Positions 35,843 to 44,726 of a DNA stretch of 64,000 nt are shown piece by piece. Below the pieces are notes generated by a model, which was given only the letters and a program-made list of their open reading frames with translations, searched no databases and was not told where the DNA came from. Position numbers and translations under genes: made by a program. Source of the stretch: an uncultured Rhodospirillales bacterium (GTDB taxonomy: Bacteria; Pseudomonadota; Alphaproteobacteria; CAAGCB01; CAG-977); contig CACYSU010000010.1 of assembly GCA_902777205.1 (NCBI GenBank), positions 1 to 64,000 of the forward strand, read 5' to 3'. How positions within the stretch are numbered: the stretch's first letter is position 1; each line of letters begins with the position of its first letter.

Positions 35843-37627
35843 ATGGCTTTTGTCAAAAAGAACAAGGATCTGCCGGCGCTGACCAAAGACAGCGTGCGGA
35901 TGTACAAACGCGTCTGGGACACTTATATTGCGCGGAAATGGCGCTGGCTGGTTCTGGCTGTTTTGCTGATGTTGATCGCGGCCAGTTTCGACGCGCTGCT
36001 GGTGCGCCAGCTGAAGCCCATTTTCGACGAAGTGTTCATTGACAAAAACCGCGCGTCTTTGGGGACGATCGGGCTGACGATTCTGGCGTTGTATTTCCTC
36101 AAAGGCGTGTTCAGCTATTCCCAATCGCTGGTGATGACAAAGCTGTCCATCCGCGTCATCGCCGATATGCAGCGCGACGTGTTCAAGCGTTTGATGCGCA
36201 TGGACATCGCGTTTTACCAAGGCCATTCCACCGGCGAGATTTTGACGCGTTTCACGTCCGATGTCGCCATGGTCAAGGACGCCGTTTTGAACAGCCTGAC
36301 CACGTTTGTCAAAGATTCGGCGTCGGTCGCTTTTCTGGTCGTTTTGATGTTCTTTCAATCGTTTGAAATGGCTTGCGTCGTGTTTTTCGTGTTTCCGCTG
36401 GGCATTTACCCCGTCGCCGTCTGCGGCCGCAAAATGCGCAAGAAAACCAAGAAAAACCAAGAGGCCGGCGAAAGCTTTTTCAACTTGGTGACGCAGAGTT
36501 TCAAGGGCATTAAAATCGTCAAGTCCTATTGCACCGAGGACAAGGAATATGAAGAGCTGGATCATATGATCGTCAAAATGAACAAGCTGTCGTTTTCCAT
36601 GGCCTGTCTGCACGCTTTGCAAAGCCCGCTGATGGAGTTTTTCGGCGGCATCGCCATGGCGGCGACGCTGGGATACGGCGGGTATCAGATCATGCAGGGC
36701 AACATGAGTCCCGGAAATTTCATGGTGTTTCTGCTGGCGATCGTCGCGGCGTACAAACCGATGAAAAACGTCGCCGGTCTGCATATGCGGATGCAGATGG
36801 GCGTCGCCGGTATGCAGCGTTTGTTTTCCATGCTGGACATCGAACCGACGATCAAAGACGCTCCGGACGCCAAGGATCTGGTCGTGTCCAAAGGGCGGAT
36901 CGAAATTCAAAACGTCAGCTTTTCCTATGACGGCGAACGCGAGGTTCTGCACGACGTTTCCGTGACGGTCGAACCGGATCAAACGGTCGCTTTGGTCGGA
37001 CATTCGGGGTCGGGCAAATCGACGCTGATCAATTTCATGCCGCGGTTTTACGACCCCGACCGCGGCCGCATCCTGATCGACGGGCAGGATATCCGCGGCG
37101 TGACGCTGGAAAGCCTGCGCCGGCAAACCGCCTATGTGTCGCAGGATGTCATCCTGTTCAACGACACGATTAAAAACAACATCCGCTACGGCACGCCGGA
37201 CGCCACGGACGAAGAGGTCGTCGCCGCCGCCAAGGCCGCCGCGGCCGACACGTTCATCCGCCAGATGGAAAACGGGTACGACACCGTTTTGGGCGAACAG
37301 GGATCGGGATTGTCCGGCGGTCAGCGCCAGATGATTTCCATCGCGCGCGCGATGTTGAAAAACGCGCCGATCCTGTTGCTGGACGAAGCGACTTCCGCGC
37401 TGGATTCCCAATCCGAAAAAATCGTTCAGGATTCGCTGGAGGTTTTGATGAAAGGGCGCACGTCGCTGGTGATCGCGCACCGGTTGTCCACGATCATCAA
37501 CGCCGACCGGATCTATGTGTTCAACGAAGGGCGGATCGAAGATTTCGGCACGCACGAGGAGCTGTTGTCGCACAACGGCATTTACGCGCAGCTGTACCGG
37601 ATTCAGTTTATGAAAAAGGATCAATGA
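35843..37627 (+). CDS. msbA: MsbA-like ABC exporter (half transporter)
   Basis: A 594-aa protein with an N-terminal six-helix membrane domain (about 30-330) and a C-terminal ATPase. Walker A is GHSGSGKST, the signature LSGGQRQM, Walker B ILLLDEATSALD, and the switch His is in VIAHRLST. It is of the lipid A flippase type (MsbA), which moves lipid A-core across the inner membrane as a homodimer. Multidrug export is possible too, as no lipid A genes adjoin. Confidence 0.85.
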   Translation: MAFVKKNKDLPALTKDSVRMYKRVWDTYIARKWRWLVLAVLLMLIAASFDALLVRQLKPIFDEVFIDKNRASLGTIGLTILALYFLKGVFSYSQSLVMTKLSIRVIADMQRDVFKRLMRMDIAFYQGHSTGEILTRFTSDVAMVKDAVLNSLTTFVKDSASVAFLVVLMFFQSFEMACVVFFVFPLGIYPVAVCGRKMRKKTKKNQEAGESFFNLVTQSFKGIKIVKSYCTEDKEYEELDHMIVKMNKLSFSMACLHALQSPLMEFFGGIAMAATLGYGGYQIMQGNMSPGNFMVFLLAIVAAYKPMKNVAGLHMRMQMGVAGMQRLFSMLDIEPTIKDAPDAKDLVVSKGRIEIQNVSFSYDGEREVLHDVSVTVEPDQTVALVGHSGSGKSTLINFMPRFYDPDRGRILIDGQDIRGVTLESLRRQTAYVSQDVILFNDTIKNNIRYGTPDATDEEVVAAAKAAAADTFIRQMENGYDTVLGEQGSGLSGGQRQMISIARAMLKNAPILLLDEATSALDSQSEKIVQDSLEVLMKGRTSLVIAHRLSTIINADRIYVFNEGRIEDFGTHEELLSHNGIYAQLYRIQFMKKDQ

Positions 37628-37720: not shown

Positions 37721-39259
37721 TCACTTGGCCAGTTTGGAAACGTCGTCGTCGGCGTTCAGCGTGAATATCCGGCTTTGGACGGCGGGCAGGCCGCATTTGC
37801 GCAATCCGGCGCCCGTGAAAATGATGCCGCAGCGTTCGCCCTGCTGCACCAGTTTGCTTTTGACCAAGCGGCGCAGGCCGGCCAGTCCGGAGCTGCCGTA
37901 CGCGGACACGTCAACGCCCGTGTTTTCGCGCGCCAGTTCGTTGGCTTTTTTCAATTCGTCGTCGTCCACGATCAGGGGCAGGCCGCCGGAAACGATCATG
38001 CTGCGCACGACCTCCAATCCGTCGTAGGTCGTCGTGCCCGCGGCGTTTTTTCCGTCCAAAACCCACGGTCTGAAATATTCGTTGCGGTTTTTGCCGACTT
38101 TGGCAAAGACGGATTCCAGATCGTCGCTGATTTTCGGATACATTTCGGCGATCAGTCCGGCCGTCATCTTGATTTGACCCAAGTTGTTCTCCAACAGGGA
38201 TTTGGCGTCGAAACTGCTTTCCAGCAGCATGGCCAGTTCGGGCGGCAAAGTGACGACGCCGTCGCGTCCCAGTTCGCGCAGCACCAGAAAATAGCTTTGC
38301 GCCAGCGGGTAGCAGGCCGAAGTCTGGCAGGTGTAAAAACGCGGCAGTTTGCGGATGATGTCCAAACGTTTGAACAGCGCGTTCGCCGACGACACCGCGT
38401 TGGCCAATCCGCCGCCGCCGACCTGAACGACCTGCGCGTCCAGCGGCGCGTCGATCGTGTATTGATTGAACAGGAATTCGTATTCCAGCGTTTCCGCCCC
38501 TTCGACCGCCGACCAAATGTCCGTGCCATAGGGCGTGAACGGCGTCCAGCCGAATTTTTCAACGGCTTCGCGATAGCGCGCGCGGCACGGTTCGTCCGCG
38601 TCGTCGCGGTCGGCGCCGGCGACTTTGACGACGTTCGTTCCCAGATTCGTCATCATGGCGACATCGTCGTCGTCGATGTTTTCGGGAACGAAAGCGTACA
38701 GCGCGTATCCCGCCGCGCCCGCGACCGCCGCCGCGCCCAACGCCGCGTCGCCGCAGGAATAAACGGCCAGCGTTTTCTTTTCCGCCGGATTGTCGGAAAT
38801 TTCGCGCAAGGTTTCCAGATGCATGATGACGCCGGCCAAATGGCGGGATTCGTGCGATCCGGTCAGCTGCAGGGTTTCGTTTTTCACAAACAGGGAACCT
38901 TTGGGCAGGTCAACCGCCTGCGCCAGATCGTCGGCCTGAATTTCGGGGGTGCGGACGAAACCGCGTCCGGTCGTGCGTTCGCACGCGTCGGACAGCGCCA
39001 AAACGCGTTCGACCCACCATGTCGCTTTGCCGTGCAGGGCGGCCAGCTGGTAACTGGCCATAAATTCGCGAAAAACGCTGAACGACAGTTTGTTGTCATT
39101 CCAGCGTTTCGTCAAAGTCGTCGGAAAAACGCGCGCCAATTCCGCCGTGTTTTCGCGTTTGATCAGCGGATGAACGCCGTTTTCGGTGCTTTCGGGGCAG
39201 AACAGTTCTGTCGTTTCCAGCGGATATTCCTTGCCGCAAACCGGACAATACAGTTGCAT
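37721..39259 (-). CDS. Threonine-synthase-like fold-type II protein lacking the PLP lysine
   Basis: A 512-aa protein. The N-terminus has a zinc-ribbon-like pair of cysteine clusters (CPVCGKEY, then LFCPES), followed by a PLP fold-type II core. The cofactor loop usually reads TGSHK or GSFK with the Schiff-base lysine; here it is T133-G-S-H-E137, so the lysine position holds Glu (codon GAA, one base from AAA). The phosphate-binding glycine loop VQVGGGGLANAV is kept. A relative of threonine synthase or a diaminopropionate-type lyase is likely by fold, but catalysis by the usual mechanism seems lost. The gene stands alone behind its own terminator. Confidence 0.75.
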   Translation of the reverse strand: MQLYCPVCGKEYPLETTELFCPESTENGVHPLIKRENTAELARVFPTTLTKRWNDNKLSFSVFREFMASYQLAALHGKATWWVERVLALSDACERTTGRGFVRTPEIQADDLAQAVDLPKGSLFVKNETLQLTGSHESRHLAGVIMHLETLREISDNPAEKKTLAVYSCGDAALGAAAVAGAAGYALYAFVPENIDDDDVAMMTNLGTNVVKVAGADRDDADEPCRARYREAVEKFGWTPFTPYGTDIWSAVEGAETLEYEFLFNQYTIDAPLDAQVVQVGGGGLANAVSSANALFKRLDIIRKLPRFYTCQTSACYPLAQSYFLVLRELGRDGVVTLPPELAMLLESSFDAKSLLENNLGQIKMTAGLIAEMYPKISDDLESVFAKVGKNRNEYFRPWVLDGKNAAGTTTYDGLEVVRSMIVSGGLPLIVDDDELKKANELARENTGVDVSAYGSSGLAGLRRLVKSKLVQQGERCGIIFTGAGLRKCGLPAVQSRIFTLNADDDVSKLAK

Positions 39260-39378: not shown

Positions 39379-39789
39379 TCATTCCTGTGCGGCGGGCAGT
39401 TCGCCCTTGGCGCCGGCCAGCAGGACGGCTTCGCGTTCGATGATCGCCATCATGTGTTTCAGCGCGGCGTAGTAATCCCCGCCCAGAATGTCGAGGTTCA
39501 GTTCGTCGATCATGGGGGCGAAGCTGGGCGCGGCCTGAACGATTTCGTTGATGCGGGCGAAATATTCGGGATGCAGGACTTTCGGGTCTTTTGCCAGATA
39601 CATTTCCTGCAAAACGTAATAGACTTTTTTGCACGGCGTATCCGCCTCTTGTTCCGTCAGGACGTATTTTTCGCGCAAAATGGGGACGTTCCCTTCGATG
39701 AACAGCTTGACGCGTTCCTTGTCGTTCGTGATCAGCGCGTTTCCGACGATCAGGCGTTCCCCCGGTTTCAATTCGATTTTCAAAGGCAT
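39379..39789 (-). CDS. flbT: Flagellin mRNA regulator FlbT
   Basis: A 136-aa protein that begins MPLKIELKPGERLIVGNALI, as FlbT proteins do. The LREKYVLTEQEADTPCKKVYYVLQ region and the later INEIVQAAPS segment are the family core. In Caulobacter, FlbT binds the 5' end of flagellin mRNA and promotes its decay until the hook is done. It lies 16 bases downstream of flagellin, so it is co-transcribed with its own target. Confidence 0.93.
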   Translation of the reverse strand: MPLKIELKPGERLIVGNALITNDKERVKLFIEGNVPILREKYVLTEQEADTPCKKVYYVLQEMYLAKDPKVLHPEYFARINEIVQAAPSFAPMIDELNLDILGGDYYAALKHMMAIIEREAVLLAGAKGELPAAQE

Positions 39790-39805: not shown

Positions 39806-41239
39806 TTAAAAAAGCGACAGTACGCTGGATTCAATATCCAATGTAATACTGATCACCTGATTTACCAATTCTTTTTGCGTTTCGATCGCCAAAAGTTCGG
39901 CGGACACTTCGTTCAAATCGGCGCCGGTCAGCGTTTCCGCCCCCAGCGCGCTCGCCCCCGACAGCGCGTCCAAAAACGTTTCGCGCGACTGCACCATGGC
40001 GGACGCGCGTTCAAATTTATCCGCCGCCCGCTGCGCCAGATTGAAAGCGCGCCCGATCGCGTCAAAGGCGGCCTGTATGTCGGATTCGTCCGTCCAATCG
40101 TTCAACGCTTCGGGCAGGCCGAGCGACTGCGCGTCCAGTTTCACGCCGATGACGGTGCGGTAACTGTCGGCCTTTTCGTCGAAAATGGCGCGGATGGTGT
40201 CGCCTTCCAGTAAATTCAGGCCGTTGTACGAACTGTCCGCGACGATGTTGTTGATTTGCCGCAAAAGTTCGTTGTACCGGTCGGCGTAGGTTTTCGACGT
40301 GTTCATCCCGCCGTCGTCGCATCCGGCAAACCCGAACGATTTGGCCGTTTGTCCCGTCAAATCGGCGATGGACAGGTCGTCGCCGTATATGGACGACACC
40401 TCGAAATACCCGTCGGAATTGACGCGGGCGGAAACGCCGTCGATTTTGGAAAAAGCCTGTTCCAGATCGTAAACCGTCCACCCGTCTTGTACGGTGATTT
40501 TATAGGTTTCGCCAAGGTCGAACCCCAACGCTTCGGCCAGCGCGCCGTCCATTAAAACAGGGCTGCGATCCGTGGAGGTCAAAGTCAGTTTCTGATCCTT
40601 GATTTCAAAGGAAAAGTTTTCGACGCCGCCCTGTTCCTTCACCTGACCGAAAAAGTCGGTGACTTTCATATCCTCGTCAATGACTTTCAGCGTGACCCAA
40701 TCGTTGTCGCCGACCTTGATTTTCATTTCCTCGCCCTTGACGATGTTCAGGTCTTTCAGCGTCGTGTCCTTGGTCATCACGAAATCGGATGTCACGGTGT
40801 CGGCGTCGCCCGTGCGCAAAACGATTTCGTCGCCCGCGTTGACGTTCGGCAGCTTGGACAGCGGTTCGTCGGAATCCGTCGTGAAGTTTTTGCCCGTCAG
40901 CGTCGCCAGATAGGCGCGGTTGTCCAGCGCGGAATTCGCCGCCGCCTTTGCCAGCGACAGCAGATCCGTGATCGCGTCGATGGATTTCGATGTCGTGTTC
41001 AGCGTCGAAACGATGTTCGACAGGCCGTCCATTACGCTTTGCAGCCCGTCGGCGCGTTCCGACAGGCGCATATCCTTGCAATACAGGATCGAATTGTCAT
41101 AGGACGAATTGACTTTTTTGCCCGTCGTCAGCGCGACGGTGTTTTTGTCGTGCATCGCCGTCAGCGATTTCGATTGCGACAACGCCGTCGTCACGGTTTT
41201 CGTCGTCGGAATCGACAGGTTGTAGGGCATTGTTTTCAT
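39806..41239 (-). CDS. Flagellin
   Basis: A 477-aa filament protein. The start at 41239 has GGAGAAACGCGA before it. The N-terminal helical part (about 10-110) has LTTGKKVNSSYDN and GLSNIVSTLNTTSKSIDAI; the C-terminal helical part has AFNLAQRAADKFERA and TGADLNEVSAELLAIETQKE. The middle (about 115-380) is the variable surface domain. Length and ends fit an alphaproteobacterial flagellin, though the N-terminus is unusual in opening KTMPYNLSIPTTKTVTTALS (sequence up to residue 21). Confidence 0.85.
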   Translation of the reverse strand: MKTMPYNLSIPTTKTVTTALSQSKSLTAMHDKNTVALTTGKKVNSSYDNSILYCKDMRLSERADGLQSVMDGLSNIVSTLNTTSKSIDAITDLLSLAKAAANSALDNRAYLATLTGKNFTTDSDEPLSKLPNVNAGDEIVLRTGDADTVTSDFVMTKDTTLKDLNIVKGEEMKIKVGDNDWVTLKVIDEDMKVTDFFGQVKEQGGVENFSFEIKDQKLTLTSTDRSPVLMDGALAEALGFDLGETYKITVQDGWTVYDLEQAFSKIDGVSARVNSDGYFEVSSIYGDDLSIADLTGQTAKSFGFAGCDDGGMNTSKTYADRYNELLRQINNIVADSSYNGLNLLEGDTIRAIFDEKADSYRTVIGVKLDAQSLGLPEALNDWTDESDIQAAFDAIGRAFNLAQRAADKFERASAMVQSRETFLDALSGASALGAETLTGADLNEVSAELLAIETQKELVNQVISITLDIESSVLSLF

Positions 41240-41361: not shown

Positions 41362-42276
41362 CTACCTCCGTTCTTTCGCGGGGCTGACCGTCCGCACGCC
41401 GACATCCACGGACACCGTGTGCCGGCCGCCGCCCGTCATGATGCCTTTGACCGGCGACATATCGTCGAAATCGCGTCCCCATCCGACGGTCAGGTGTTCC
41501 GATCCGATGTACATATTGTTCGTCGGATCCAGATCGACCCAGCCGAAAGACGGGACGAACACGGAAAACCACGCGTGCGACGCGTCGCCGCCGATCATTT
41601 CGATTTCGCCTTTGCGTTCGGCTTCGGCCGCGCGGCGGGTGCGGATGTATCCGCTGACGTATCGGGCGGGCAATCCCCACGCGCGCAGACAGGCGATGGC
41701 GACGTGGGCGAAATCCTGACAGACGCCGCGTTTCATGGCGATCGTTTCGTCAACCGGCGTGGCGATGCTGGTCGCCGACGGGTCGTAAGTGAAATCGCGG
41801 TAGATGCGGCGCATGATCTCTTCGGCCGCGGCCAGAACGGGGCGGTTCGGGGACAGGCTGGGGGCGGCGTAGGCTTTGGCCGCCGCGGAAAGCGGAATGA
41901 AGCGGGACGGGGCGGCCATTTCCGCCGCGGCCGTCAATTCCGGCGTGTCGGGGTGCGCCGTCATCGCCGCGACCCGTTCCCACGCGGGCGTTTGTTCGGG
42001 ATCGGGATAAACGGGCGGCGTGATTTCCGCGGTGAATTCGGAAACGATCGTCATTTCCCTGTGCGGCGTTTCGGCGATCAGGAAAGTCGCCGTGTTGCCG
42101 AACGCGTCCGTTTCGTCGGTTTGACAGGACGGTTCGGGCGTCATGGAAATATCGGCGGACAAAACGCGCTGATACGGCGTTTCGCGCGGCTTCAATCGCG
42201 CCAGATGATGCGACAGGGTGACGGGGATGCCGTATCCGTAAACGGTTTTGTGGCGGACGCGATAAGTGACGGTCAT
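41362..42276 (-). CDS. Transglutaminase-like protein
   Basis: A 304-aa protein. It starts with the N-terminal beta domain common to this family (about 1-90), followed by the transglutaminase core with the C-H-D triad: Cys in RGVCQDFAHVA, His in ASHAWFSVFVP and Asp in WVDLDPTNN. Its first four bases overlap the stop of the ATP-grasp/alpha-E gene. Proteins with this pairing are predicted to make or trim peptide tags using an ATP-grasp ligase; the role in this species is not known. Confidence 0.9.
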   Translation of the reverse strand: MTVTYRVRHKTVYGYGIPVTLSHHLARLKPRETPYQRVLSADISMTPEPSCQTDETDAFGNTATFLIAETPHREMTIVSEFTAEITPPVYPDPEQTPAWERVAAMTAHPDTPELTAAAEMAAPSRFIPLSAAAKAYAAPSLSPNRPVLAAAEEIMRRIYRDFTYDPSATSIATPVDETIAMKRGVCQDFAHVAIACLRAWGLPARYVSGYIRTRRAAEAERKGEIEMIGGDASHAWFSVFVPSFGWVDLDPTNNMYIGSEHLTVGWGRDFDDMSPVKGIMTGGGRHTVSVDVGVRTVSPAKERR

Positions 42277-44726
42277 TTGATTTTCCCTTTGTTATAGGCG
42301 GGGCCTTGGCGCGTCGAATCCGCGTGGACGAAACACGACAGCGTCAGGGAATCTGAAAATTCCTGCAGTTTGGAGCGCAGATTGTTCAGCAAAGTGTTGA
42401 ACGCCGGATTGACCGCGACGGTTTCGGTCAAATCCCGCGTCTGCTGCGCCAGATTCATAACGTCGATCGCTTTGATGTCGGCAATGACGGATTCCAAAAC
42501 GGCCAGTTCCTTTGAAAACAGGGCGGGCATACGGCTTTCGCGCTCCAAAACGGATATGTTCTGGCGCAGTTTCATCACCTGATAGATCAGGGCGCGCGGG
42601 TTGCCGTCGTCGCACACCAGCAAATCGAACACCAGCGGGACGGTGGGGACGGACATATACCGGACGCGGTAGGTCATGCGGCTGTCCGACGTTTCCAACA
42701 GCGTGTCCAGCGACGCGTTGAACCCGTTGTTCGCGCAAAAATCAATGCCGGACAGCAGGTTGATGATCTGCATCCCCCGTTCCAGCCGCCGGCCGATTTC
42801 CAGAAAACGCCAGCTGTGATCGCGCGTCATATCTTCGCGGATCAACCCGCTCAGCGCGTTTTGGCGCAGGATGATTTCATTCAGCCGGTTCAAAAAGATT
42901 TGGGCGTTGGCTTTCGGATCGGGCAGCAGGGGGGGCAACTGCGCGAACAGTTCCCAAGTGTCCATGGACAGCCGGTCGTGCAGCAGGTCGGCCATGTCTT
43001 TCAGCCGGTTGAACAGATAGTGCAGGCCGAAACCGTAATCGGGCGACGCGGCGATGTTTTTCAAATCCGTCATGGCGTCGCGCCGCGCCTGCGGATCGCG
43101 GTAATCCTTGAACGGCAGATGCCCCGTCAAGGCCAGCACGGACAGCAAGGTGGCGATGTCGTCGGGTTCGGGCGTTTCGGGCCCCTCGGTCGCGCGTTCG
43201 ATGACGACGCGCAGCAGGCGCGCCAGCTGTTCCCCGCGTTCCAGATTGCGCCCCAGCCAATACATATTGTCGGCGATTCGCGATGTCAGCTCGAACGTCG
43301 TGCGGACGGGTTTCGTTTGCGTCGCCGCGCGGATGCGGCCGGCGACGGCGCTGTCGGGGCGGACGGCCGATCCCGCGACCCATATGTCGCGCAGGGACGG
43401 GACGTTCGTTTGCGTGAACGCCAGCCCGCCGTTCATGACGCGGTAGGAACCGTTTTCATAAATCAGGTGAAAGCGCAGGCGGGTGCGCGCGGGGGAAAGG
43501 CGGCCGTTTTGCATCACGGGGGACAGCGAGGCGTTGACCCGTTCCTGCGCCACGTAGTTTTCGGGGGCGGTTTCGATGTCGTCCTTTGTCGGGCGGACTT
43601 TTTTGCCCGTGATGTCGTACACTTTCAATTCGGCCAAATGGTCGATGACGTACCGTTTTTCCTTTTCCTGACCGCACCACCACGCGGCGACGCTGGGCAG
43701 GATCAGGTCCGCGCCGTTGAAATGGCGGCAAATCCCGTGGATGAACGCGCGCAGGGCGGGAATTTCCGCCAATCCCGTTCCCAGCGGGTTGATCAGCGCG
43801 ACGTTGCCTTTGCGCACGACGTGCGTCAATCCGGCGACGCCGAACATGGACGATCCGTTCAATTCCAGCGGGTCGCACAAACCGTCGTCAACGCGGCGCA
43901 AAATCACGTCAACGGGTTTCAACCCGTCAATGTTTTTCAAATACACGCGGTCGCCGCGCACCGTCAGGTCGGCGGGGTCGATCGCGATGATGCCCAGACT
44001 GCGGGCGAAAAAGGCTTCCTCAAACGACAGTTTCTTTTTGATCGCCGCGCTGAGCAGCACGATCATCGGGACGCGCGTTCCGTCCGCCGACAGGGCGCAG
44101 GCGAACAGTTGGCGGCGCATGGATTCAAAGAAATCGTAGATGCGCGCGGGGGCGGCCGAAGCGTAAACGTCGGGCATGACGCGCGACAGAACCAGACGGT
44201 TTTTAATGGTCAGCCCGATGCCTTCGGGCGTTTGCGCCTTGTCCGCGACGATCCAGAACCGGCCGTCGGGCGCGCGTTCCGCATCGACGGCGTATTCCCG
44301 CAAAAAAACGCCGTCGGCCGGCCGCGCCGTTTTCAGCGCGGGCAGATAGGCGGGGTTGCCGAATACGATTTGCGGCGGGATCACGCCGTTCGTGATCAGA
44401 CTCTGTTTGCCGTACAAATCGCGCAGGATGGCGTTGAACAGTTCCGCGCGCTGGATCAATCCGGCCGACAGGTGTTCAAATTCGTCCGCCGGCAGGATGA
44501 AAGGAATGACGCCGTGCGCTTTTTTCTGCCGCGCCGCGGCCGTCATCGCGTCCGCGCTCATCAGCCGGTCAACCTGATCGGCGCAGGCGGCCAGCCGTTC
44601 CAAACCGTTTTGTCCGGCGGCGTCGAAAAAAACGCGCCAATGCGGACGGATTTCGCCGTCGGGCGCGACCAGTTCGTTGTATCCTCCCGTCGGGCAGACG
44701 GCCGGATAGGAAAAGGGAAAAGTCAT
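42273..44726 (-). CDS. Circularly permuted ATP-grasp plus alpha-E domain protein
   Basis: An 817-aa protein from the ATG at 44726, which has CAGGACG upstream; a longer frame upstream is not protein-like. The first two-thirds match the DUF404/DUF407 circularly permuted ATP-grasp domain (GGYNELVAPDGEIRPHW near the start, GVPP-type loops, NGGLAFTQTNVPSL). The last third, from about residue 495 (SRIADNMYWLGRNLERGEQL), is the alpha-E domain (DUF403). Such proteins occur with a transglutaminase and often an Anbu-type proteasome-like peptidase; no Anbu gene is here. The ATP-grasp part probably forms amide bonds. Confidence 0.9.
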   Translation of the reverse strand: MTFPFSYPAVCPTGGYNELVAPDGEIRPHWRVFFDAAGQNGLERLAACADQVDRLMSADAMTAAARQKKAHGVIPFILPADEFEHLSAGLIQRAELFNAILRDLYGKQSLITNGVIPPQIVFGNPAYLPALKTARPADGVFLREYAVDAERAPDGRFWIVADKAQTPEGIGLTIKNRLVLSRVMPDVYASAAPARIYDFFESMRRQLFACALSADGTRVPMIVLLSAAIKKKLSFEEAFFARSLGIIAIDPADLTVRGDRVYLKNIDGLKPVDVILRRVDDGLCDPLELNGSSMFGVAGLTHVVRKGNVALINPLGTGLAEIPALRAFIHGICRHFNGADLILPSVAAWWCGQEKEKRYVIDHLAELKVYDITGKKVRPTKDDIETAPENYVAQERVNASLSPVMQNGRLSPARTRLRFHLIYENGSYRVMNGGLAFTQTNVPSLRDIWVAGSAVRPDSAVAGRIRAATQTKPVRTTFELTSRIADNMYWLGRNLERGEQLARLLRVVIERATEGPETPEPDDIATLLSVLALTGHLPFKDYRDPQARRDAMTDLKNIAASPDYGFGLHYLFNRLKDMADLLHDRLSMDTWELFAQLPPLLPDPKANAQIFLNRLNEIILRQNALSGLIREDMTRDHSWRFLEIGRRLERGMQIINLLSGIDFCANNGFNASLDTLLETSDSRMTYRVRYMSVPTVPLVFDLLVCDDGNPRALIYQVMKLRQNISVLERESRMPALFSKELAVLESVIADIKAIDVMNLAQQTRDLTETVAVNPAFNTLLNNLRSKLQEFSDSLTLSCFVHADSTRQGPAYNKGKIK

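Follow-up and report, generated by a model that had tools for sequence, protein, structure and literature searches.

A flbT-linked homologue of fold-type II PLP enzymes with glutamate at the Schiff-base lysine position: a private and perhaps very recent change

We found that a gene in the window (the whole 64,000-nucleotide stretch of contig CACYSU010000010.1 that was analysed) encodes a divergent homologue of the fold-type II pyridoxal phosphate (PLP) enzymes, in which the lysine expected to hold the cofactor is replaced by glutamate. The best reading overall is a very recent, private loss of Lys137 in an accessory orphan PLP enzyme, to which we give slightly better than an even chance. An ordinary enzyme copy that was recently disabled, or an error in the sequence, is most likely what we see, rather than a new kind of chemistry. 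The features of the locus are collected in Table 1.

Table 1. Features of the PALP gene and its flanks in the window.
Feature	Position	Strand	Basis or remark
Fold-type II PLP-enzyme homologue (PALP), divergent, 512 aa	37721..39259	-	Frame intact
N-terminal Cys-rich segment, zinc-ribbon-like	39164..39259	-	Invariant alignment columns
Codon 137 = GAA (Glu), Schiff-base lysine position	38849..38851	-	Sequence and alignment
Codon 171 = Asp where the SxGN motif has Asn	38747..38749	-	Family alignment
Gly-rich loop GGGGL for phosphate binding, residues 281-285, retained	38405..38419	-	Sequence; model confidence low here
flbT, directly upstream	39379..39789	-	Conserved neighbour in 10/10 homologous loci
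MsbA-type ABC exporter, convergent, downstream	35843..37627	+	Present in 8/10 homologous loci

The gene begins with ATG at 39259, and its frame stays open over 512 codons to 37721. The active-site loop of the protein reads T-G-S-H-E-S-R-H, and phmmer alignment placed its glutamate, residue 137, opposite the lysine of PTGSFKDR in the Aquifex threonine synthase 2zsj, confirming the earlier note's observation of a GAA codon where the Schiff-base lysine of fold-type II enzymes should be. The same note had described the remaining motifs of the fold as intact. This holds for the glycine-rich phosphate loop, present as VGGGGL at residues 280-285, with the qualification that residue 171 is aspartate instead of asparagine. 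Among the ten other family members residue 171 was N in six, S in two, A in one and T in one, and aspartate occupied the matching position in 11/11 genuine ThrC proteins of the relatives, so Asp171 was rejected as a second active-site loss. With N, S, A, T and D found across the 11 family members, this position is unusually free for a residue of the PLP pocket. At the N-terminus, C5, C8 and C21 were invariant across the family, and the Pfam zinc ribbon scored only 10.4 bits on this segment, under its cut-off.

Assignment to the fold was supported by a Pfam PALP match of 112.3 bits, above the cut-off of 35 bits. In addition, an AlphaFold model of the window protein (mean pLDDT 73.7) matched threonine synthase 2zsj with a Foldseek E value of 2.4e-12, a Z score of 23.1 and an rmsd of 3.4 over 304 aligned residues. 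Judged from this model, the protein has a fold similar to that of solved fold-type II members. The regions with pLDDT below 50 include residues 245-275 and 282-292, at the phosphate loop, and active-site geometry was therefore not read from the model. The label 'threonine-synthase-like' given earlier thus stands for the fold and fails for the identity: the TIGR00260 (ThrC) profile reached 31.1 bits where 167.1 are required, PRK08197 gave 68.6 bits against 303, and all remaining NCBIfam matches were also far under their cut-offs. Furthermore, 11/11 relatives of the order carry a separate ThrC with the motifs LAFKD and SGDTG, and the one of these that was scanned against Pfam contains the Thr_synth_N domain. 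Identity as threonine synthase was rejected on these grounds. By sequence, the family consists of divergent, orphan paralogues of fold-type II PLP enzymes. A literature search at the level of titles and the openings of abstracts found no description of it.

We compared the protein with its homologues in 12 genomes, the window's own included, of a gut and rumen alphaproteobacterial order. Full-length homologues were found in 11 of the 12: besides the window's own genome, ten of the eleven remaining species have one, with identities of 56-81%. Lysine occupied position 137 in all ten, encoded by AAA in nine and by AAG in one, and glutamate appeared only in the window. The earlier note had proposed asking whether the glutamate is conserved among homologues, and it is not. 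On the aligned sequences, then, Glu137 does not characterise the family: it is private to the window genome, and a single transition separates its codon from the usual one. The note had also held that close homologues with lysine that function as usual enzymes would speak against its reading; the lysine half of this objection holds in every case, and the relatives are presumably active. A scan of contigs returned 11 loci, ten of which encode the same ten homologues, from records labelled Alphaproteobacteria, several being rumen or faecal metagenome-assembled genomes by title. The eleventh, L075, was rejected as a family member, being an ordinary GSFK threonine-synthase-like protein of 28% identity. 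No match other than the window's own genome was found in a phylum draw of 398 genomes (E ≤ 1e-15), nor any in the plasmid collection at 1e-8. Within the searches run, the family appears to be known from this one order only.

The PALP gene lies just downstream of flbT in all ten relatives that have it. The MsbA-type exporter, which lies convergently downstream in eight of these loci, had no match in the available stretch of the other two, one of which is on a short contig. An eleventh relative, G010, has the transglutaminase, flagellin-like and flbT genes and lacks the PALP gene at this place, and no homologue was found elsewhere in its genome; this absence marks the gene as accessory and dispensable. 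At the G010 locus (L095, G010:C1:8000-20000), the place of the PALP gene is taken by two frames, one of them 221 residues long, TetR-like on visual inspection and unrelated to that gene. Beside flbT in the window, positions 39806-41239 encode a divergent flagellin-like protein with a Pfam Flagellin_N score of 24.7 bits, just under the cut-off of 26.6. Adjoining the flagellin-like and flbT genes, positions 41362-44600 encode a transglutaminase-like protein and a circularly permuted ATP-grasp/Alpha-E protein; the transglutaminase was matched in 9/10 homologous loci and the ATP-grasp/Alpha-E protein in 8/10, some of these loci being truncated by the end of the contig or of the locus. Scans for promoter-like sites (1 against 0.8 expected) and terminator-like sites (8 against 4.3 expected) were uninformative.

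The rest of the protein has been strongly conserved. The other ten members agree throughout at 184 columns, of which the window protein changed four (K137E, L203M, L233V and K234E), while the same count for the other members ranged from 0 to 36. The retention of 180 of these 184 residues, together with the open frame, bears out the earlier view that the gene is not simply decaying, and neither mark of a pseudogene, a broken frame or lost constraint, was seen. Divergence from the nearest relative was dN 0.127 and dS 1.30 (Nei-Gojobori). In neutral simulations, half of this dS, the window's side of the divergence, changed about 130 of the 184 columns, and as little as 0.02 substitutions per site changed a mean of 8.4 (5-95% range 5-12), against the four observed; these limits and the timing drawn from them are rough, as dS values of about 1-2 are close to saturation. 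The comparison suggests that constraint held until very late in the window lineage. If the frame stayed under constraint for almost the whole time since the lineage split off, the lysine was either lost very recently, or is missing through an error, or the constraint served something other than catalysis.

Relaxed selection in the window lineage was considered and found no clear support. The terminal branch of the window protein was ordinary (0.20, family median 0.17; treekit), that of the neighbouring MsbA protein was 0.094 (median 0.082), and the PALP/MsbA distance ratio averaged 1.69 when the window was one of the pair and 1.63 otherwise. Pairwise relative-rate differences were positive for the window in 8 of the 10 listed, with a maximum of +0.154 (against L070, L071 serving as sister). 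A mild acceleration may therefore have occurred; some of the difference may stem from the mosaic signal seen between L070 and L071. Support is poor in parts of the family tree, where mosaic signals also appear. The protein of L070 (also numbered L011), which is from a different genus, was identical to that of L006 in 95% of columns 161-240 and in 70-85% elsewhere, and its MsbA protein was much more distant. These alignments suggest recombination or transfer of the PALP gene between genera.

The lysine of a PLP enzyme forms the internal aldimine and usually also serves as acid and base; an enzyme that loses it is normally left with little or no turnover, even where PLP or external aldimines can still bind. 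The family alignment contains no lysine private to the window protein elsewhere that could substitute for Lys137. Given the role of the lysine and the lack of a substitute, we infer that the window protein is a catalytically dead copy. The preferred reading would then run as follows: the gene is an accessory one, coding for a fold-type II PLP enzyme from an orphan paralogue family; a single A-to-G transition (AAA to GAA) would recently have turned the PLP-binding Lys137 into glutamate; no internal aldimine could form, and normal catalytic activity would very probably be gone; and the lineage would now carry a full-length, folded but disabled copy, the first step in losing a dispensable gene. 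Lysine in 10/10 relatives points to a private change of recent date, or to an error, rather than to a lasting pseudoenzyme or a different chemistry. Of the earlier suggestion of 'a pseudoenzyme or another chemistry', the loss of usual PLP chemistry is reasonable, while a lasting lysine-less state or a different reaction is disfavoured. It counts against the preferred reading that the glutamate comes from one genome, and that an intact gene is also what a wrong consensus base, or a non-catalytic function that was kept, would give. The rough timing from dS, the poor support in parts of the tree and the positive relative-rate differences weigh the same way.

Among the alternatives, the strongest is that this one base is wrong in the consensus or was misread, or represents a minority allele, and that the true gene encodes lysine; we hold it to be unlikely but worth serious attention. 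GAA is one transition from AAA, the codon of 9/10 relatives, the remainder of the protein is under constraint, and the genome is a draft in 34 contigs that seems to have one gap or more. However, consensus substitution errors are rare where the coverage of an assembly is adequate, and one would not expect beforehand that an error should fall on just the catalytic codon, though the finding was selected for its oddness.

The apparent gap concerns thrC. The window's genome, G000, is the only one of the 12 in the order with no thrC match (E ≤ 1e-20), in an assembly that is 98.81% complete; its homoserine dehydrogenase is present. From the thrC neighbourhoods of the relatives (L086-L089), a search run without a positive-control genome found no match in G000 for the DJ-1/PfpI-type neighbour or for the near-universal SHMT, and only 24% and 22% matches for the M16 peptidase neighbour. 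As genes flanking thrC are also missing, an assembly gap fits better than a real loss, and a link between the missing thrC and the loss of Lys137 was dropped. The absence looks like one missing contig, not threonine auxotrophy.

A maintained pseudoenzyme, in which the lysine-less protein keeps a non-catalytic role of the kind shown for plant TSB-like, whether it senses a ligand, acts as a scaffold or activates a partner, we consider improbable. The full frame, the family-invariant residues that were kept and the fixed place beside flbT in 10/10 relatives are consistent with it, but glutamate occurs in no relative, and there is hence no sign of lasting selection on the lysine-less state. A more particular version, a fold-type II pseudoenzyme newly born beside the flagellar genes and kept for a regulatory or binding role, is slightly less probable still. 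That Glu137 performs a different chemistry, possibly PLP-dependent or acid/base, is highly improbable: the PLP-phosphate loop and most family-conserved residues are kept, but no private lysine compensates and the glutamate is confined to one genome.

If the loss of Lys137 is real, the window would offer a snapshot of a PLP enzyme losing the lysine that holds its cofactor, to be compared with ten relatives that keep it. Should the base prove wrong, the case advises caution in inferring catalytic loss from single draft genomes. New chemistry at Glu137 is unlikely. The locus also brings to light an orphan PALP family tied to flbT in one gut order.

Among known systems, the family resembles short-form threonine synthase (Aquifex aeolicus 2zsj; PRK08197, TIGR00260) in its fold, in the region of the GS-x-K loop and in its best family hits. 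It differs in reading GSH[K/E]SRH where that enzyme has GSFKDR, in its length of about 500 residues and in scoring below the ThrC cut-offs; the separate ThrC of the relatives is of the long class, in contrast to the short form. Two lysine-free or non-catalytic relatives of PLP enzymes provide further comparison, one, TSB-like, of fold-type II, and one related to the cysteine desulfurases, which are of fold type I. TSB-like, a non-catalytic paralogue of tryptophan synthase beta in eudicots, is described as a pseudoenzyme whose genes are widespread in plants and whose product allosterically activates TSA, the abstract citing two key residues (PMC12727527); compared with that description, the window case is one genome in which the lysine was lost, with no known partner. 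Rv3778c of M. tuberculosis is described in its source as a PLP-enzyme homologue that lacks the PLP lysine and is likely noncatalytic and, unlike the window protein, it is related to cysteine desulfurases (PMC12910592).
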